Of a stretch of 28,885 nt of DNA, positions 1 to 26,393 are shown piece by piece. The stretch's first letter is position 1; every line of letters begins with the position of its first letter. Location: positions 1-28,885 of the forward strand of contig JAVCCG010000008.1 of assembly GCA_030765605.1 (NCBI GenBank). The letters run 5' to 3'. The notes beneath the pieces are model-generated. The model was not told the origin of the DNA. It ran no database searches and saw only the letters and a program-made list of their open reading frames with translations. The position numbers and the translations under genes are program-made. Source of the DNA: Candidatus Alcyoniella australis. Its GTDB lineage: Bacteria; Lernaellota; Lernaellaia; JAVCCG01; Alcyoniellaceae.

Positions 1-1986
1 GCCGCCATCGGCGCGCCGATCAAGACCTTCACCTACGACGGCGATACGCCCGACGACGCGCGACGCGCGATCCGCTCCCAGGGGCACATCGTGGTCAGCA
101 ACCCGGACATGCTGCACGCCGGCGTGCTGCCGCACCACACCAAGTGGCAGAAGCTGTTCACCAACCTGCGTTACGTGGTGCTCGACGAGCTGCACACCTA
201 TCGCGGCGTGTTCGGCAGCCATCTGGCCAACGTGCTGCGTCGGCTGCGGCGCATCTGTAAGTTCTACAACTCCGAACCGACCTTCATCTGCTGCTCGGCG
301 ACCATCGCCAATCCCGGCGAGCTGGCCGAGGCGTTGATCGAGCGGCCGGTAAAGGTCGTCGACCGCTCGGGCGCGCCGCGCTCACGCAAGCGACTAATTC
401 TCTACAATCCGCCGGTGGTCAACCGCGAGCTGGGGATTCGTAAGAGCGCGGTGACCGAGGCGCGCAAGATCGCCGCGAACTTCATCGAGAACGGAATCCA
501 GACCATCGTCTTCACCACCAGCCGGCTCAACGTCGAGGTGCTCACCCGCTACCTCAAGGACCGCTTCTCACGCGACAAGCTGGTGCCCGACGACTTCATC
601 TCGGGCTACCGCGGCGGATATTTGCCCAACCTGCGACGCCGCATCGAGTCCGGGCTGCGCACGGGCAAGGTGATGGGCGTGGTCTCGACCAACGCCCTGG
701 AGCTGGGAATCGACATCGGCGATCTAACGGCCTGCGTGATGGCCGGCTACCCCGGCTCGATCGCCAGCGCCTGGCAGCAGGCCGGACGCGCCGGACGCCG
801 CAGCGGCAGCTCTTGCGCAGTGCTGATCGCGCGCTCCAACCCGCTGGACCAATACATCGTCACCCACCCCGAGTACTTCTTCGGCGCCAGCCCGGAACAC
901 GCGCGGATCAACGCGGACAACCTGCTGATCCTGCTCTCGCACATCAAGTCCGCATCCTTCGAGCTGCCGTTCGAGGACGGCGAGAGCTTCGGCCGCGAGA
1001 ACCTGATCGAGCTGCTGGAGTTCCTCGAGGAAAAGAGCGTATTGCACCACTCGGAGGGCCGCTGGCACTGGAACACCGACGCCTACCCCGCCGACGAGAT
1101 CAGCCTGCGCAACATCAGCACCGAGAACTTCGTCGTGGTGCTCAAGGACGCCCAAAACAAGGTGATCGCCGAGGTCGATTTCAGCGCCGCGCCGACCACG
1201 ATCCATCCCGACGCGATCTATATGGTGGAGAGCCAGCAGTACTACGTGGACGAGCTGGACTGGGAGCGCCGTCGCGCGCTGGTCCACCCGGTGGACGTGG
1301 ACTACTACACCGACGCTATGACCTACACCAACGTGCGCGTGCTCGACCGCTTCGACTTCGACAAGGCCGGAAGCGAGATCGTCGAACACGGCGAGGTGCA
1401 GGTGGTGCGTAAGGTTGTGGGCTTTAAAAAAATAAAATTCTACACCTCCGAGAACGTGGGCTTCGGCGACGTGACCCTGCCGGACAACCAGATGCACACC
1501 ACCAGCTACTGGTTCACCGTGCCCCAGGACATGCTGCGCTCGCTGGGCTACAACCGCTCGGACCTGATCGACGGTCTGCTGGGCATCGGCCATGCCCTGC
1601 ACCACCTGGCCTCGGTGGCGCTGATGTGCGATGTGCGCGACCTGGACCGCTGTGTGGGCGACAAGTCGGCCGAGTGGTTCGTGCGCCACGACCCCGGCGG
1701 CCGCGGGATCTACAGCGCGGACGACGCCGCGGGCCTGATCGACCCCGAACGGATCGACGCCTTCGACCCCACGCTGTTCATCTACGACACCTACCCCGGC
1801 GGGATCGGGCTCTCCCCCGAGATCTTCCGCCTCCACGTCGAGCTGATCGCACGCGCGCGGGAGCTGATCGCAGGCTGCGCCTGCGAGGCCGGCTGCCCCA
1901 GCTGCGTCGGTCCGGTCAACGAGGTCGGCGTCAAGAGCAAAGAGGTTGCGCTGAAGATCCTCGAGCTGTTGCTGAACGGACGATGA
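1..1986 (+). CDS. mrfA: MrfA/YprA-type DEAH-box helicase with DUF1998, 5' truncated by window
   Basis: This is the C-terminal part of a superfamily 2 DNA helicase. The reading frame is open from base 1, so the start, Walker A and motif Ia lie outside the window. Visible are motif II as DELH (base 184 on), the SAT motif in ICCSATIANP, the TNALELGIDIG segment and motif VI QQAGRAGRR (near 775-800). The C-terminal DUF1998 region ends with a CACEAGCPSC cluster whose four cysteines (codons at 1876, 1882, 1894, 1903) match the metal-binding cysteines of MrfA. In Bacillus subtilis MrfA works with the exonuclease MrfB in a UvrABC-independent repair route for mitomycin C lesions. The stop overlaps the mrfB start (ATGA), supporting the same pairing here. 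The family call rests on strong similarity of the stretch around DELHTYRGVFGSH to YprA. The role in repair is inferred from the family. Confidence 0.93.
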   Translation, partial: AAIGAPIKTFTYDGDTPDDARRAIRSQGHIVVSNPDMLHAGVLPHHTKWQKLFTNLRYVVLDELHTYRGVFGSHLANVLRRLRRICKFYNSEPTFICCSATIANPGELAEALIERPVKVVDRSGAPRSRKRLILYNPPVVNRELGIRKSAVTEARKIAANFIENGIQTIVFTTSRLNVEVLTRYLKDRFSRDKLVPDDFISGYRGGYLPNLRRRIESGLRTGKVMGVVSTNALELGIDIGDLTACVMAGYPGSIASAWQQAGRAGRRSGSSCAVLIARSNPLDQYIVTHPEYFFGASPEHARINADNLLILLSHIKSASFELPFEDGESFGRENLIELLEFLEEKSVLHHSEGRWHWNTDAYPADEISLRNISTENFVVVLKDAQNKVIAEVDFSAAPTTIHPDAIYMVESQQYYVDELDWERRRALVHPVDVDYYTDAMTYTNVRVLDRFDFDKAGSEIVEHGEVQVVRKVVGFKKIKFYTSENVGFGDVTLPDNQMHTTSYWFTVPQDMLRSLGYNRSDLIDGLLGIGHALHHLASVALMCDVRDLDRCVGDKSAEWFVRHDPGGRGIYSADDAAGLIDPERIDAFDPTLFIYDTYPGGIGLSPEIFRLHVELIARARELIAGCACEAGCPSCVGPVNEVGVKSKEVALKILELLLNGR

Positions 1987-3293
1987 CCAAGCTGCGCGAG
2001 CGCCTCGAGGGTGTGCTCGGCTCAAGCGGCAGGGCCCCTGAGCAAGATAAACAGCGCACGATCTCGCAGTTGCGGCAACGGATCGACGAGCTCACCGGCG
2101 GCCGCGGTATGGTGCAGCCGCAGGCAATGGAACCTACGACCCAGCGCGTTGACATCCAGGGGCTGGTCCCGGGTCGGGTCGTGGACACGCCGTGCGGGCC
2201 GACGTTCGTGGCGCAATACCGTTACCCGATGGCGCTGACCCACGGTCGGCTGCGACTCGACCGGCTGTTCGACGTGGATCCGGCGATGCTCGCCCTGCTC
2301 GGCGCGGACCCGAGCCTGGCGGCCCTTGACCCTCGGCGCACGCTGTTCTTCGACACCGAGACCACGGGGCTGGCCGGCGGCACGGGCACCTACGCCTTCC
2401 TCATCGGCCTGGGCGAGTTCGAGGGCGACGAGTTCGTGGTAACGCAACTGTTCATGCGCGACCTGAACGAGGAGGGCGCCAGCCTGCACCTGCTGACCCA
2501 AAAGCTCGAGCGTGCTGCATTCCTGGTCAGCTTCAACGGAAAGACCTTTGACGCTCCGCTGCTCAACACGCGGCTGGTGCTCAACCGCCTTCCCGCCTCC
2601 CTGGACGACACGCCGCACCTGGACCTGCTGCACCCATCCCGGCGGCTGTTCCGCGAGCAACTGCCCGACTGCCGCCTGGGCACCCTTGAGCAGTACGAAC
2701 TGGGATTCGAGCGGCGCGGCGACGTGCCCGGCTCGATGGTGCCCGAACTCTATCGCTCCTATCTGCGCTCCCGCGACGGCCGGTTGGTGGCCAAGGTTTT
2801 TACCCACAACGTCTACGACGTGCTCTCGCTGGTCACGCTGACCAGCCACCTGGCCCAGCTTGTCGCACAGGCGGATAGTTCGACGCTCGATCCGGCGCTG
2901 ATTCTCGCCACAGCACGGCTGTTGCGCGACCGCGGCCAAATCGACCGCGCCCGGCGTTGCTTTAATCTGGCGTTGGAGCGCTCGTCAGAGGCCGACCCGC
3001 ACACCGCGAGTCGCGCACGTCTCGAGGTGGCCCTTGATTTAAAACGCGGGGGCGAGCACGAGCGCGCTGCCGAGCATTTCACGATTTTGGTCGATTGCGG
3101 ACCGTTCGATCCCCTGCCCTACGAACAGTTGGCGATTCATCTGGAACACCACGCCAATGATTACATTCGGGCTGAACAGCTCACGCAGCGCGCGTTGCAG
3201 TTTCTGCGCGCCGGCGCATTCGCTTCGCGCCGCGAGTACTGGATCGCGGCGTTCGAGCATCGGCTCAGTCGGCTACAGAGAAAACTCGGTTGA
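1983..3293 (+). CDS. mrfB: MrfB/YprB-type DEDDh 3'-5' exonuclease with TPR-like tail
   Basis: A 436-residue RNase H-like exonuclease. The metal ligands of the DEDDh class are all visible: D124 and E126 in FDTETTGL, D190 in FNGKTFDAPLL, H275 and D279 in HNVYDVLSL. Their spacing closely matches B. subtilis MrfB (D107, E109, D172, H258, D262, from memory). The last ~130 residues are helical and TPR-like (RARRCFNLALE, AAEHFTILVD). The N-terminal ~45 residues are polar and may tether it to the helicase. The start is the ATG that overlaps the mrfA stop (ATGA), implying translational coupling. In the frame there is open sequence further upstream inside mrfA, but family length argues against using it. 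Likely function is degradation of a damaged strand exposed by MrfA; this is inferred from the B. subtilis pair. Confidence 0.92.
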   Translation: MTKLRERLEGVLGSSGRAPEQDKQRTISQLRQRIDELTGGRGMVQPQAMEPTTQRVDIQGLVPGRVVDTPCGPTFVAQYRYPMALTHGRLRLDRLFDVDPAMLALLGADPSLAALDPRRTLFFDTETTGLAGGTGTYAFLIGLGEFEGDEFVVTQLFMRDLNEEGASLHLLTQKLERAAFLVSFNGKTFDAPLLNTRLVLNRLPASLDDTPHLDLLHPSRRLFREQLPDCRLGTLEQYELGFERRGDVPGSMVPELYRSYLRSRDGRLVAKVFTHNVYDVLSLVTLTSHLAQLVAQADSSTLDPALILATARLLRDRGQIDRARRCFNLALERSSEADPHTASRARLEVALDLKRGGEHERAAEHFTILVDCGPFDPLPYEQLAIHLEHHANDYIRAEQLTQRALQFLRAGAFASRREYWIAAFEHRLSRLQRKLG

Positions 3294-4222
3294 GTCCAGA
3301 GCCGCGCGATCTGGTGATCTCGGCGTCGCGCACTAAGGATCTGGTGCGTTGCAACGCCGACCTGCTGGCCGCGGCGCTGTGCGGCGCTCACCCGGTGCGC
3401 TTCGGCCTGGCGCCGCACTCTGCTCCGTTGGATTTGGAGCATCTCGGCGCGCTGGTGCTCTGGACCTGCGATCCGTCCAACCTCACGGCGCACCGTCCAT
3501 TGCGCGAAGCATTGGAAGGACTCGAACGTCGCGGCGTGGTGCTCAGCGTGCAGCTCACCGTAACCGGACTGGCCGGCAGCGCAGTGGAGCCCGGAGTACC
3601 TGACGAGCGTTTCGTGCTCGCGCAGATGCAGCGCGCTATCGACGCGCGGCTGATCCGGGCCGAGGCCGTGACCCTGCGCTTCGATCCGTTCGCCCGCTTT
3701 CACTTGCCGGGTGGACGCGAGCTGTGCAACGCCGACCCAAAGGTGTTCGAGCGCGTACTCGACCTTTTTTCGTCGATCGGAGTTACCCGCGTGGTGACAT
3801 CACAGTTGGACGTGGAGAACTATCCGCACGTGGCCCAGCGGTTTGTTCGGCTGGGCATCGAGGTGCTAAAGACCGATGCTGAGTCGCTGGTGCAAGGCTT
3901 CGATGCCGTGGCAAAGACCTACGGCATTGAGTTCGCTGTCTGCTGTCACCCGGCGCTGCCCGAGTACACCGAACGCTTCGGCTGCATCGACGGGCGAATG
4001 CTCAATGCATTGATCGGGCCGAAGCGCGTGGGGCCGTTCAGCGAGACGCTGCACAACCAAATCGGCAAACAGCGGCCGGACTGTTGCTGCACCTACTCGC
4101 GCGACATCGGTCACAGCAAGGGGTTCCGCAACTGTTTCTCGTTCGGAACCGGCTGCCTGTACTGCTATGCGCAGCGCGGCCTGCCGCCACAGATCGAGGC
4201 CGCGGTCAAAGATCTGCTCTGA
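3290..4222 (+). CDS. DUF1848 family protein with radical-SAM-like cysteine motif
   Basis: A 310-residue protein beginning at TTG, which overlaps the mrfB stop (TTGA). The N-terminal LVISASRTKDLV and internal VTLRFDPFARF resemble the conserved ISASRRTDI and RFDP segments of DUF1848. Near the C-terminus are cysteines C265-C267 (CCCTYSRDIG) and C282, C289, C292 (CFSFGTGCLYCYA), corresponding to the family's terminal CGC...C..GC.YCYA block that suggests an iron-sulfur, radical-SAM-like site. Here the first cysteine of the final triad is six residues from the second instead of the three I recall as typical. No function is established for the family. Its place as third gene of an mrfAB operon suggests a nucleic-acid repair or modification role, which is inference. 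It ends just before the convergent dut terminator. Confidence 0.8.
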   Translation: MSPEPRDLVISASRTKDLVRCNADLLAAALCGAHPVRFGLAPHSAPLDLEHLGALVLWTCDPSNLTAHRPLREALEGLERRGVVLSVQLTVTGLAGSAVEPGVPDERFVLAQMQRAIDARLIRAEAVTLRFDPFARFHLPGGRELCNADPKVFERVLDLFSSIGVTRVVTSQLDVENYPHVAQRFVRLGIEVLKTDAESLVQGFDAVAKTYGIEFAVCCHPALPEYTERFGCIDGRMLNALIGPKRVGPFSETLHNQIGKQRPDCCCTYSRDIGHSKGFRNCFSFGTGCLYCYAQRGLPPQIEAAVKDLL

Positions 4223-4239: not shown

Positions 4240-4262
4240 AAAAAACCGGGCTATGCCCCGGT
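4240..4262 (-). terminator. Intrinsic terminator of the rimP-to-dut operon
   Basis: Read on the minus strand, a 6-bp stem (ACCGGG / CCCGGT, arms at 4257-4262 and 4245-4250, 6-nt loop) is followed by six T residues. The dut stop codon (4251-4253) lies in the loop. Just beyond, on either strand, is a 9-1-9 palindrome of T6CAA/TTGA6, giving further U-rich sequence. It ends the minus-strand operon between convergent dut and the DUF1848 gene. No comparable hairpin followed by a U run was seen for the plus strand. Confidence 0.75.
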
Positions 4263-4702
4263 GTGCCCGAAGCCGCCCTCTCCGCGCGAGCTGGGGGGCA
4301 GCTCGTCGCATTGCTTGAACTCGGCGCGCGCCACCGGCGCGATCACCAGCTGGGCAATGCGCTCGCCGCGCTTGATCGTCGCCGGCTCCTGGCCGAGGTT
4401 GATCATCAGAATCTTGAGCTCGCCGCGATAGTCCGCGTCGATGGTGCCCGGCGTGTTGAGCAGGGTCAGGCCGTAGCGCACGGCCAGGCCCGAACGCGGC
4501 CGGACCTGGGCCTCGAATCCTTCGGGCATGGCCAGCGCCAGGCCGGTGGGGACCAGCGCGCGCTCGCCGGGCGCGAAGATCATGTCGGTATGCACTGCGG
4601 CCGCGATGTCGGCGCCGGCCGCGTGCTGGGTCATGTATTGGGGAAGGGGCAGGTCGGCGTCCCCAGATGGGTCGAGACGCCGGACCATTACCCGCGGATC
4701 GA

Positions 4703-4706
<4 letters not shown>
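4251..4706 (-). CDS. dut: dUTP diphosphatase
   Basis: A 151-residue trimeric-type dUTPase, normal length for the family, hydrolysing dUTP to dUMP and pyrophosphate. All five motifs are present: AGADI (30-34), PRSGLA (70-75), [10 protein letters not shown] (88-96, with the catalytic D90 and Y93), [10 protein letters not shown] (113-122), and the C-terminal glycine-rich arm [10 protein letters not shown] (141-150) that closes over the substrate. The ATG start overlaps the pnp stop (ATGA), so it is the last cistron of the translation/RNA-turnover operon. In several deltaproteobacteria a peptidase gene lies between pnp and dut; here they are directly coupled. Identity is secure. Confidence 0.97.
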
Positions 4707-21548: not shown

Positions 21549-22468
21549 AGAACGACAACGGACCCGAGCCCGATCGGACCCGGCCGGCGCCTCCCTCCGA
21601 GCCCGTGCCGCACGGCGACGAGAGCGACCCGAGCCTGGATGAGCAGGACGGCGCAGGCGCCCGGATGCCGGTGATCGATCACCTGACCGAGCTGCGCACC
21701 CGGCTGCTGTACTCGGTGCTCGCCTTCCTCGGGGCGTTCATCGGCTTGTACTATCCGCTGCGCACCAAGGTGCTGGTCTTTCTGCTCCAGCCGTATTTGG
21801 ACGCCTACAACAGCCTGATCCTCTGGGGCGAAGAAAAGACCCGTAGCTTCCAGGAGGTGACCACCGCACTCTCACCCCAGGAGGTGCTGTTCACCGACAT
21901 GAAGGCGATCGCCCTGGTGGCGCTGATCGTCTCCAGCCCGGTGATCTTCTATCAGGTCTGGCTCTTCGTCCGCCCGGCGCTGAAACGCGCCGAGCTGCGC
22001 TTTACCTTTCCGTTTGTAATCGCCTCGACCATCTTCTTCATGGCGGGCACGGCGTTTTGCTACAAGGTGATCCTCAACATCTCCTCGGCGTTCCTGATCC
22101 TCTACGCCGCGCCGGTGACCGCGGTGCGGGTAAGCATCGCCTCATATTTCAGCTTTGCCCTGCGGCTCGAACTGGCGTTCGGCCTGGCCTTCGAGCTGCC
22201 GGTGGCGATTTTTATTCTGGCGCGGATGGGCCTGGTCAACGCCAAGTTCCTCTGGAGCAAGTTCCGTTGGGCGATCCTGGTGATCGCCTTGTGCTCGGCG
22301 GTCCTTACGCCGCCGGACATCGTCAGCCAGACGCTGCTGGGTATCCCGCTGATCGGCCTGTACGTGCTTTCGATCGGCGTGGCCCACGTCTTCGGCAAGT
22401 CCAGGCCGGCCGCGGCGAAAGATGACGACGAAGAGGACGAACCGCCGGAGGACGAACCGGCGGGCTGA
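21545..22468 (+). CDS. tatC: Sec-independent translocase subunit TatC
   Basis: A 307-residue TatC with six membrane helices; the receptor for twin-arginine signal peptides. Family motifs are HLTELRTRLLYS, LSPQEVLFTDMKA, YQVWLFVRPALKRAE, FGLAFELPV and the near-terminal LTPPDIVSQTLLGIPL. It is longer than E. coli TatC (258) because of a ~40-residue hydrophilic acidic N-terminal extension and an acidic tail (KDDDEEDEPPEDEP). The GTG start overlaps the tatB stop. An in-frame ATG at 21665 would start right before the conserved core and remove the extension, so the true start is uncertain. The stop overlaps the next gene (TGATG). Confidence 0.95.
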   Translation: MKNDNGPEPDRTRPAPPSEPVPHGDESDPSLDEQDGAGARMPVIDHLTELRTRLLYSVLAFLGAFIGLYYPLRTKVLVFLLQPYLDAYNSLILWGEEKTRSFQEVTTALSPQEVLFTDMKAIALVALIVSSPVIFYQVWLFVRPALKRAELRFTFPFVIASTIFFMAGTAFCYKVILNISSAFLILYAAPVTAVRVSIASYFSFALRLELAFGLAFELPVAIFILARMGLVNAKFLWSKFRWAILVIALCSAVLTPPDIVSQTLLGIPLIGLYVLSIGVAHVFGKSRPAAAKDDDEEDEPPEDEPAG

Positions 22469-24645
22469 TGATCCGGCAAGCCGGAGCCCGGCAACAGCTC
22501 CTGGCCGGCGCAGCGATCTTCGCCGCGCTGGTTGCCTGGATCGTATTGGCCGACGTCCATAGTCTCAATCAAGACGAGGGCTACTACACTCGCGCCGCGC
22601 TCAGCGTACTTGAGGGCGACCCGCTGCTCTCGAACACCGACCTTGATAAGCCGCCGCTGCTATTCTGGCTGATGGCCCCGGGGATCGCGTTGCTGGGGCA
22701 CAACGAGCTGGGAGTGCGGTTGGTCGGCGTGCTGGCCTGCCTGGGGATACTGCTGCTGTGTGGCCGCATCGCCCGCCGCCTGGCCCAGCTATCGGGCCTG
22801 GACCCGCGAGCCGCGCGCAACGCGGCGCTGTGGCTTTGCGCGGCATCGCCCTACCTGCTGTTGCTCGGACCGCTGGGCATGACCGACGCACCGGCCGCCC
22901 TGCTCTCGCTGTTGGCGATCGACGCGGCCCTGAGCCGCAAGTCGCGGATGGTCGGCGTGTGGGTCGGGCTGGCCTGGGCCGTGAGGCAGCTTGGGTTGCT
23001 GGGGGCGGTGGTGCCCGCGCTGATGATTTTTACGCTGCACCTGCAAGCGGGCGATCGCGGCAGGCGGTTGTTGCAGGAGTTGTGGCGCGAGCTGCGCGCG
23101 TTCCTGATCGGGTTCGCCATACCCGTACTGCCGCTGATGCTCTGGTCGGGCCTAGCCGCTCGCGAGCCGTTCGTCTGGATCTTCGGCGAGATATTCAACA
23201 AGTCCGGGATGGCGGCCCCGGCGGCTGATCCGCTGGCCAAGCTCGGCCACTGGCTCGAGGTAGCCACGGGGTTCGCGCCCTCGGCGGGCCTGTCGCTGCT
23301 GGGCCTCGCGGCGCTGATCGTCTTGCCCGCAGCGCTGCGCTCGCCGCAGCAACGCACCCTGCGTGGGCTGCTGTGGGCAATGGCCGCAGCCGCCGCATTG
23401 TTCCTGGCGCTGTTCACGCTCTGGGGATTCCCACGCTACCCGCGCTACCTGTTTCCCCTGCTGCCGCTGTGCATCTGGGGCCTGGCCCTGAGTTGGTCGC
23501 TGTTGATCCACAGGCTACGTGAGGGATTGCGGCCGATCGCCTCGACCCTGCTGGCCCTGTCCTGCGTTCTGAGCTTGATTGCCTCGACCCAGCGCATGGC
23601 GCAGCCCTATCCGCGCGACGACCTGCCCGCCCTGGCGCGGATGATCCGACACGAGGCCCGGCTGCGACCCAGCGCCGTGATCTCGCGCGATCTGAATCGG
23701 CAGCTGCTGTTCTATTTGCACAACGTCGAAATCAAACGCGGCCAGTGGCACGATGATCCGGCCGACCGCATTCCGAGCCTGCTTAGCAAGTACGAGGCGC
23801 GACGGGTGCTGATGCTGCTCCAACGCCAGGAGGGCGAGCTCGAAAATCCGGCACGCTTGGCTGACTACGCCGGAAAGCTGCGCATCATGCGGCTCGTTGC
23901 AACCGGACCGCGCGACACGATTCGCATCTACGAAATCATCCCGGCCAAACAGCCGCGCCGCACGCCCGAGGGCTTGGCGCTGTACGACGCGAGAGCAGAC
24001 ACCATCAGCCCGATCAGCGCCGCGGATCTGGAACAGTGGGTCGAGTCGGCGCTGAGCCGCGGATTGACGGCCCAGGGGGTCGCGGTAAACGCGACTGTCG
24101 CAATCGATGACAGCGGCGTGCAAACGGTTGCGCTAAGCGAGCTGACCGTCCAGGCCCAGTCGATCGAGCTGGACCACGCGCGATTTAGCGATCTGCGGCT
24201 GCACTACAGCGACGCGCGCGCCCTGACCGGCCCGCTGGTCTCGTTCGGATCGTTGCGGCTGCAGGACGTGGGCCAGGCCGACGGCTCGATGCTGATCCGC
24301 ATCGTTGATCTTGAGCACGAGATCGCGCGCAAGAACCGCAATATGTCCGTCGTGCGCGTACAGACCGCGGGCGAGCGGCTGACGATCGGCGGCCAAACGC
24401 CTGCCCTGGGACGCACCTTTAAATTCGAGGTCAGCGGAATCCTGCGCGCCGAGCACGGTAGGCTCTACTTCGACCTGATCTCTGCGCGCCTGAACGGAAT
24501 CCAGGCTCCGGAATGGCTGCTGGGCCAGGTCGCCTCGCGCATCAACCCGGTAATTAAGAGCAGTATCCCGAGGCTCGGGCTCGAGATCAACAGCGCGCAG
24601 GTCTGTCCCGAGGGCGTGCGGCTGTCGCTCGGCCCGCGCCGATGA
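22468..24645 (+). CDS. GT39-type glycosyltransferase fused to DUF2993/LmeA-like domain
   Basis: A 725-residue two-part protein. The N-terminal ~450 residues are a GT-C glycosyltransferase of the ArnT/PMT type: the first periplasmic loop has NQDEGYY with the D36-E37 pair, and the KPPLLFWL motif begins at K61, followed by many hydrophobic helices. These enzymes move sugars from polyprenyl-phosphate donors on the outer side of the inner membrane. Residues ~515-725 are soluble and match the DUF2993 pattern: a helix (ISAADLEQWVESALSRGL), then alternating strands with VQAQSIELDHARFSDLRLHY, KFEVSGILRAEHGRLYFDLISARLNGIQAPEWLL and a closing LGLEINSAQVCPEGVRLSLG. In mycobacteria the DUF2993 protein LmeA binds phospholipid and supports lipomannan elongation. 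The reading frame is continuous with no frameshift. Sugar and acceptor are unknown. Confidence 0.78.
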   Translation: MIRQAGARQQLLAGAAIFAALVAWIVLADVHSLNQDEGYYTRAALSVLEGDPLLSNTDLDKPPLLFWLMAPGIALLGHNELGVRLVGVLACLGILLLCGRIARRLAQLSGLDPRAARNAALWLCAASPYLLLLGPLGMTDAPAALLSLLAIDAALSRKSRMVGVWVGLAWAVRQLGLLGAVVPALMIFTLHLQAGDRGRRLLQELWRELRAFLIGFAIPVLPLMLWSGLAAREPFVWIFGEIFNKSGMAAPAADPLAKLGHWLEVATGFAPSAGLSLLGLAALIVLPAALRSPQQRTLRGLLWAMAAAAALFLALFTLWGFPRYPRYLFPLLPLCIWGLALSWSLLIHRLREGLRPIASTLLALSCVLSLIASTQRMAQPYPRDDLPALARMIRHEARLRPSAVISRDLNRQLLFYLHNVEIKRGQWHDDPADRIPSLLSKYEARRVLMLLQRQEGELENPARLADYAGKLRIMRLVATGPRDTIRIYEIIPAKQPRRTPEGLALYDARADTISPISAADLEQWVESALSRGLTAQGVAVNATVAIDDSGVQTVALSELTVQAQSIELDHARFSDLRLHYSDARALTGPLVSFGSLRLQDVGQADGSMLIRIVDLEHEIARKNRNMSVVRVQTAGERLTIGGQTPALGRTFKFEVSGILRAEHGRLYFDLISARLNGIQAPEWLLGQVASRINPVIKSSIPRLGLEINSAQVCPEGVRLSLGPRR

Positions 24646-26393
24646 CAACCGATCGCGCGCGCCGGGTTCTGCGCCTCGTGGCGTGGGCCGCGCTGGGACT
24701 GCTGATCACCATCGTACTGACCTACCCCGTGGCCCTGCGCCCGGGCACGCACCTGCCCTCGGATCTGGGCGATCCGCTGCTCAACAGCTGGATCCTCTGG
24801 TGGGATTTCGAGCATCTGTTGAGCCTGGACTTCAACGGATATTGGAACGCGCCGATCTTCCACCCGCTGCCGCACGCGCTGACGCTCAGCGAGCATCTGC
24901 TGGGCGCGGCGCTGCTCGCAACGCCGATCTACGCTGTGAGCGGCAACCAGTTGCTGGCCTACAACCTGCTGCTGCTGTTTACGTTCTTTGCCGCGCTGAC
25001 CGGCGGCGCGGCCCTGGCGCGACACCTCGGTCGCTCATGGATCGCCTCCTGGCTGTGCGGAATGATCTTCGCCTTTTGCAGCCACCGCTATGCCCAGCTG
25101 CCGCATTTGCAGGTGCTGTTCGGCGGACTGGCGCCGTGGACTATGCTGTTCCTGCTGCGGCTGACCGAGAAACCGCGACTGCGCGATTCGCTGGGTCTGC
25201 TGGTCAGCCTGTGGCTGATCAGCTTCAGCTGCCTGTATCACGCGGCGTTCTTCAGCGTGCTGTTGATTTTGGCCTGCGCGATGCTGTTCTGCACGCGCCG
25301 CCTGTGGACCAAACCGCGCTCCCTGGCGCTGATCGCCCTGCCCGCGCTGCTGGTGGGGCTGAGCATGCTGCCGGTGATCCACGCCTACCGCCAAGGTGCG
25401 CAGTACTTCGGCTTGCAACGCTCCCTGGCCGACGCAGCCTTTTACTCGGCGCACCTGAGCAGCTTTCTGGCGAGCAGCGAGCACAGTCGGCTGCTGGGCC
25501 TGCTCAGCGCACGCTGGCGCGGCCCCGAGGGCGAGCTCTACCCGGGGATCGTAGCCGCGAGCCTGGCGCTGGCGCTGTTCGGTCTGGCGTTGCGTAAAGC
25601 CCGACGCGAGGGCGGCCGCGGCCTGCGACGCACCATCGAGCTGACCTATCGCGAGTCCGGAGGAGACGTCACGCTGCTGTTCGTGCTGCTGGGGCTGGCC
25701 GCGTTGCTGTTCACCCTCGGACCGGAGCTGAGGCTGCACGGAAAAATCCTAGGGCCGGGTCCCTACCTGCTGCTCTACAAGTTCGTACCCGGCTTTCAGT
25801 CGATCCGCGTGCCGCCGCGCTTTGCCACCTACCTGATGCTCAGCCTGGCCGTGCTCGCATCCGGCGGTCTGGACGCGCTGCTGCACCGCATCCCGCGACG
25901 CGGGGTCGCACTGGTAATCGGCTTGGCAGCGCTGGCGCTGTGCACGGCCGAGAACCTCTCGATTCCCCTGCGCTGCGTGGCCGTGCCCCAGGTTCCGGCG
26001 GTTTACGAACAGCTGGACGACCTGCCTCCCGGAGCGCTGCTCGAGCTGCCCCTCAACCGCGAGTACCGCTTCCCGGACGTGATCTACCAGCACTACCAAA
26101 CCGTGCATCGCCGGCCGCTGATCAACGGCTACTCCGGCTTCTTCCCGCAGCACCGCGATGAGTTGCTACGCGCGCTGGCCGCGGATCGTGCGATCACGCC
26201 CTTGCTCGAACGGCAGCTGCGCGAGGCTGATCCGCGCTATTTAGTGGTGCACCAGGATAGCCCGGAGTGGGATCGCAACGGTCAGTTGCCCGCGATGTTT
26301 CTTGAGTCAGCGCTGTTCGTGCCGCTGCTTGTCGACGGCCCGATCACGATTCTGGTTTGGCGAAGTGATTCAGCGCTTGGGGAGCTGCTTTAA
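24642..26393 (+). CDS. Large GT-C/YfhO-like membrane protein of unknown specificity
   Basis: A 583-residue polytopic membrane protein with about ten to twelve hydrophobic segments in the first ~440 residues and a small soluble C-terminal domain. The first outside loop contains SDLGDPLLNSWILWWDFEHL (about 40-59), and FQSIRVPPRFATYLMLSLAV lies near residue 385; both patterns are seen in uncharacterised YfhO-like GT-C proteins. The C-terminal part has GALLELPLNREYRF and PLINGYSGFFPQHRDELL, also typical of them. No donor or acceptor can be assigned. The ATG overlaps the stop of the GT39-DUF2993 gene (ATGA), and the 3' end overlaps the convergent TerB-like gene by 24 nt. Likely last gene of the envelope operon. 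Confidence 0.8.
   Translation: MTTDRARRVLRLVAWAALGLLITIVLTYPVALRPGTHLPSDLGDPLLNSWILWWDFEHLLSLDFNGYWNAPIFHPLPHALTLSEHLLGAALLATPIYAVSGNQLLAYNLLLLFTFFAALTGGAALARHLGRSWIASWLCGMIFAFCSHRYAQLPHLQVLFGGLAPWTMLFLLRLTEKPRLRDSLGLLVSLWLISFSCLYHAAFFSVLLILACAMLFCTRRLWTKPRSLALIALPALLVGLSMLPVIHAYRQGAQYFGLQRSLADAAFYSAHLSSFLASSEHSRLLGLLSARWRGPEGELYPGIVAASLALALFGLALRKARREGGRGLRRTIELTYRESGGDVTLLFVLLGLAALLFTLGPELRLHGKILGPGPYLLLYKFVPGFQSIRVPPRFATYLMLSLAVLASGGLDALLHRIPRRGVALVIGLAALALCTAENLSIPLRCVAVPQVPAVYEQLDDLPPGALLELPLNREYRFPDVIYQHYQTVHRRPLINGYSGFFPQHRDELLRALAADRAITPLLERQLREADPRYLVVHQDSPEWDRNGQLPAMFLESALFVPLLVDGPITILVWRSDSALGELL

Follow-up and report, generated by a model that had tools for sequence, protein, structure and literature searches.

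The window analysed here, 28,885 nucleotides in length, consists of the first bases of contig JAVCCG010000008.1 (C8) of Candidatus Alcyoniella australis. At its beginning three genes follow each other on the plus strand, joined by start/stop overlaps, and are met by a convergent gene on the minus strand. The features of this region are as follows:

1..1986, plus strand: mrfA, encoding a YprA-type SF2 helicase with a C-terminal MZB zinc domain; the 5′ end is missing, as the contig starts here
1983..1986, plus strand: ATGA start/stop overlap of mrfA and mrfB
1983..3293, plus strand: mrfB, encoding a DEDDh 3′–5′ exonuclease core with a C-terminal TPR
3290..3293, plus strand: TTGA start/stop overlap of mrfB and the DUF1848 gene, with a presumed start codon
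3290..4222, plus strand: DUF1848 gene, 310 amino acids, predicted circularly permuted radical-SAM domain
3941..3985, plus strand: codons C218 to C232, both cysteines invariant in DUF1848; putative ligands of an auxiliary cluster or zinc
4082..4090, plus strand: codons C265-x-C267 (CxC motif), invariant; putative ligands of an auxiliary cluster or zinc
4133..4165, plus strand: codons C282 to C292, C-terminal CX6CX2C, the counterpart of the CX3CX2C loop in other DUF1848 proteins
4251..4706, minus strand: dut-like gene, convergent and downstream, named from its sequence only; it marks the boundary and lies outside the system

The first base of the window is also that of the contig, so the mrfA reading frame is truncated on its 5′ side and lacks a start codon; 661 amino acids are readable and the N-terminal part lies outside the contig. 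The readable part matched the Pfam families DEAD, Helicase_C, WHD_HRQ1 and MZB (the MrfA zinc-binding domain), showing an SF2 helicase core with a C-terminal four-cysteine MZB domain (CACEAGCPSC), and it matched the structure of Bacillus subtilis YprA/MrfA (PDB 6znp) with an E-value of 3.5e-206. MrfB (436 amino acids) matched Pfam RNase_H_2 (5e-39) and TPR as well as the MrfB structure 8un9 (E 8.5e-33). Its DEDDh residues are D124, E126, D190, H275 and D279, with a C-terminal TPR behind this core, and their spacing of 66/85/4 is nearly that of B. subtilis MrfB (65/86/4, residues taken from PMC11194089). These matches bear out the initial annotation, which had assigned the helicase and exonuclease to MrfA and MrfB and had pointed to the shared spacing of the catalytic residues. 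By domains and motifs, both proteins are clearly related to the B. subtilis mitomycin repair pair MrfA-MrfB (YprA-YprB), in which the MZB helicase likewise precedes the DEDDh-TPR exonuclease. They presumably work as in B. subtilis, as a helicase together with a 3′–5′ exonuclease (PMC11194089, PMC12458937). What differs from B. subtilis is the additional DUF1848 gene after mrfB in A. australis; the accessible parts of PMC12458937 and PMC11194089 make no mention of a DUF1848-like partner of MrfAB.

The DUF1848 gene is the only copy in the A. australis genome. Its product matched Pfam PF08902 with 86.9 bits (cut-off 30.5) over the full length of the model (positions 1–262 of 262) and keeps all invariant cysteines of the family; no NCBIfam model matched it. 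As noted initially, the gene overlaps the mrfB stop codon, and TTG at 3290 would be the start codon, with GTG at 3314 as the alternative. We favour TTG because the related protein L082 likewise begins with ‘MSP...’ at a GTG within the upstream stop codon.

Seven cysteines were invariant in 57 aligned DUF1848 members, namely C218, C232, C265, C267, C282, C289 and C292 in A. australis numbering. In nearly all members the last three read CX3CX2CY, within the loop CX3CX2CYA, and the C-terminal CX3CX2C occurred in 119 of the 122 distinct sequences (118 by script and one mis-scored on account of a preceding cysteine). The three others, the A. australis protein (C282, C289, C292) and the relatives L081 and L082, read CX6CX2C; they form one clade with a support of 1.0, and their loop is three residues longer. 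The A. australis protein therefore belongs to a divergent clade of PF08902, with two other members found. Furthermore, its WTK motif reads WTC, so that an otherwise nearly invariant Lys is lost. The radical-SAM-like cysteines reported initially are real, and the whole family looks radical-SAM-like, but in this protein their spacing is not the canonical one. Since CX6CX2C replaces CX3CX2C we do not call it a canonical member, but a relative of the radical-SAM enzymes that probably works like one. The seven invariant cysteines would be enough for a second cluster.

For a comparison with radical-SAM domains, the C-terminal cysteine segment was moved ahead of the DUF1848 body. After this rotation 9 of 12 single sequences matched Pfam Radical_SAM (best 5.4e-7 with 30.4 bits, one match above the curated cut-off), although several of the nine matches cover the loop only; in natural order only one of the same 12 sequences did so, at 0.021. 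The best rotated match fell to 0.45 once the body had been shuffled. This single-sequence control covered five members. The rotated A. australis protein and L082 gave no Radical_SAM match singly. Most NCBIfam matches of the rotated set were to radical-SAM families, the first being PA0069 (6.5e-4).

Profiles were compared as well. Against 19 SplB/PA0069-like proteins, the rotated DUF1848 profile aligned over 229 columns (E 8.4e-19, 99.1%). The natural-order profile aligned with the same 19 proteins over 193 columns (E 2.6e-12), starting beyond the cysteine loop, and controls made of the cysteine segment and a shuffled or reversed body aligned over 22–25 columns only (E about 4e-8 to 1e-7). Pairwise profile E-values are not database-calibrated, and it is the contrast with the shuffled and reversed controls that serves as evidence. 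Together, the three kinds of profile show that loop and body are both similar to these proteins and that only the rotated order joins them. A PDB sequence search with the natural or rotated alignment gave no significant chain. Rotated DUF1848 shares the cysteine loop and the TK and EP positions with the SplB/PA0069/Rv2578c-like radical-SAM proteins (NF033668, NF038135; spore photoproduct lyase-like), but differs from them in its order, with the loop at the C-terminus, and in four further invariant cysteines. The A. australis genome (G000) itself gave no match to PA0069/SplB-like radical-SAM proteins, and several of its relatives have one.

Structures were predicted with AF2 for the A. australis protein (pLDDT 90.5, pTM 0.90) and for a canonical DUF1848 member (pLDDT 94.0). 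Foldseek returned no clear radical-SAM match for either model and ranked other TIM barrels first. As Foldseek alone is weak here, the structural case rests on VIA-align Z-scores of 10–12 in combination with the profiles. VIA-align placed radical-SAM enzymes on top for the A. australis model, with 3can (Z 10.2, rmsd 2.7, 157 aligned residues) and RlmN 3rf9 (Z 10.2, rmsd 3.6, 174 aligned), and the canonical member reached Z 11.6 with 3can and Z 10.7 with 3c8f (rmsd 2.8, 165 aligned). The 50 VIA-align rows listed include no spore photoproduct lyase structure, which carries no weight either way. The predicted barrel thus superposes on pyruvate formate-lyase activating enzyme and RlmN (3can, 3c8f, 8fo0, 3rf9), and the partial (β/α) barrel of radical-SAM enzymes is present in both models, in line with the rotated profile. 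The position of the loop is different. Residue 2 of the A. australis model falls on residue 61 of pyruvate formate-lyase activase, beyond its cysteine loop, which we take to span about residues 30–36, and residue 1 of the canonical member falls on residue 72. Whereas the loop is N-terminal in the radical-SAM domains of these enzymes, following strand 1, it lies near the C-terminus in DUF1848, at residues 282–292 of 310 in the A. australis protein.

Most probably, with a likelihood of roughly three in four, A. australis carries a normal mrfAB pair next to which a DUF1848 gene was placed in this genome only, as far as found, and DUF1848 represents a radical-SAM domain in circular permutation, with kin among SplB/PA0069-like proteins. 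The chain would start near strand two of the partial barrel, and its end would be formed by the loop that opens ordinary radical-SAM domains, an arrangement that may go back to a permutation in the evolution of the family. C282, C289 and C292 would hold a [4Fe-4S] cluster, and this cluster would cleave SAM to a 5′-deoxyadenosyl radical for use on a substrate. C218, C232, C265 and C267 might serve as ligands of an auxiliary cluster or of zinc.

The three additional residues in the cluster loop and the missing Lys of WTK in the A. australis protein raise the question whether the family is radical SAM, but SAM chemistry has been lost or changed in the CX6CX2C clade. We regard this as unlikely. 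L081 and L082 retain the Lys of WTK, and all three proteins have kept the seven cysteines and the SR, E and R-DP positions at a mutual identity of only 42–46%, which argues for continued selection.

It appears quite improbable that DUF1848 makes no use of SAM and is instead a TIM barrel with zinc or a structural cluster bound to its cysteines. Such a protein would agree with the Foldseek ranking, with the lack of an NCBIfam match for the A. australis protein and with the invariant cysteines, as these suit zinc as well as iron-sulfur clusters. It would not agree with the specific CX3CX2CYA loop, with the extent of the rotated profile match relative to its shuffled controls or with the first rank of radical-SAM enzymes in the structural comparison of two models.

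In the reading preferred here, a rearrangement or the acquisition of a gene would have put DUF1848 at the end of the transcription unit of a normal mrfA-mrfB pair. The nearest genomes available for comparison were six others of the same class, outside the genus and family of A. australis, and DUF1848 was absent from all six. Two of them (G002 and G004) contain mrfA-mrfB at about 68% and 41–43% identity; in both, the next genes are serS and one for a phosphoesterase (names given by sequence). A search of genome contigs with the family alignment gave 80 DUF1848 loci, among which L081 and L082 stood out and the others reached 2e-30 or weaker. L081 from a Myxococcota MAG is the closest relative (45% identity, E 2e-68), and its gene precedes fusA. 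L082 from a Deltaproteobacteria MAG (42% identity, E 9e-65) directly follows a thiolase gene; its genome has an mrfA-mrfB pair, but on another contig, and the genome of L081 gave no RNase_H_2 match. Two further searches, centred on the genomes of L081 and L082 and covering 192 and 186 genomes, yielded no closer relative than these two, and relatives were likewise absent from the viral contigs and plasmids searched. The check for adjacency in related genomes that accompanied the initial annotation therefore came out negative, with serS after mrfAB in the class and fusA or thiolase genes beside the closest DUF1848 genes.

Profiles for MrfA and MrfB, built from sequences of this analysis, were run over 151 DUF1848 locus records of about 1 Mb, some of them overlapping, and found a true mrfAB pair at the A. 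australis locus only. Many of these loci carry a flank of only 1.5 kb, so that a direct neighbour is visible and a distant one is not. Weak matches near other DUF1848 genes belonged to TPR proteins (L172, L100), a RecQ-like helicase (L188) and another kind of exonuclease (L057). Among the genomes examined, the mrfA-mrfB-DUF1848 trio is a single occurrence, and its adjacency was not found in more than one lineage.

The start/stop overlaps that run through all three genes, together with the relationship of the nearest radical-SAM group to spore photoproduct lyase, might suggest that DUF1848 is a partner of MrfAB in DNA repair that supplies radical lesion chemistry or serves as a sensor, and a repair route of this kind had been proposed for the locus. 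We consider it highly unlikely. Besides the unconserved adjacency, the two families do not co-occur beyond chance: among 60 relatives, 10 genomes had DUF1848 and 45 had RNase_H_2 proteins, with no association between them (Fisher p = 1.0; 0.74 for strong matches only). Clustering of the neighbours of 85 DUF1848 loci revealed few recurrent families, several of them confined to single clades, and no repair genes. Moreover, a GTGA overlap joins DUF1848 to the stop codon of the thiolase gene at L082 and of a dapA-like gene at L077; the four-base overlap thus reflects how this gene joins operons of many kinds and is no mark of MrfB. At the A. australis locus it may allow co-expression, and we saw in it no sign of joint function. 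As the trio is known from one genome, taking it as a repair system would mislead. Spore photoproduct lyase repairs DNA. Nothing found here points to DNA as the substrate of DUF1848; kinship with the SplB/PA0069-like group, which includes this lyase, would allow DNA but does not favour it, because the group is broad. Least probable of all is the recruitment of an SplB-related permuted radical-SAM enzyme with CX6CX2C to the MrfAB excision route, where it would act on a lesion or crosslink remnant exposed by MrfAB.

The mrfAB pair is already known. A radical-SAM family with a circular permutation would add a variant to a kind of enzyme already described, and we do not claim priority for it. A literature search, with most subscription journals outside its coverage, found no paper naming DUF1848 or PF08902, and the part of the literature on radical SAM and circular permutation that was surveyed describes no DUF1848-like family. 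DUF1848 is distributed over Clostridia, Bacteroidota, many candidate phyla and Asgard archaea. A widespread family of ‘unknown function’ thus looks like a radical-SAM fold with a C-terminal cysteine loop, and surveys designed to find the loop close to the domain start may overlook it. If the permutation is real, this natural example would show that the cluster loop of radical-SAM enzymes can be attached from either end.

Elsewhere in the window, a frame of 725 amino acids (22468–24645) pairs an N-terminal PMT_2 glycosyltransferase with a C-terminal LmeA-like phospholipid-binding domain, which is an unusual combination. It overlaps by 4 bases with a frame of 583 amino acids (24642–26393) that had no Pfam match at 1e-5. 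The exonuclease at L057 (682–1425; genome G079, contig C108) is a DEDD 3′–5′ exonuclease just downstream of DUF1848 on the same strand; it resembles the PolB-exo2 group and not MrfB, and was seen at one locus only among those examined. Two observations concern other genomes of the class. In G004 (L017/L072) an open frame of 1228 amino acids runs through the mrfB match, lying in another frame over mrfA, and in G003 (L073, 4386–8387) an MrfB-like gene is directly followed by a mutS-like gene.
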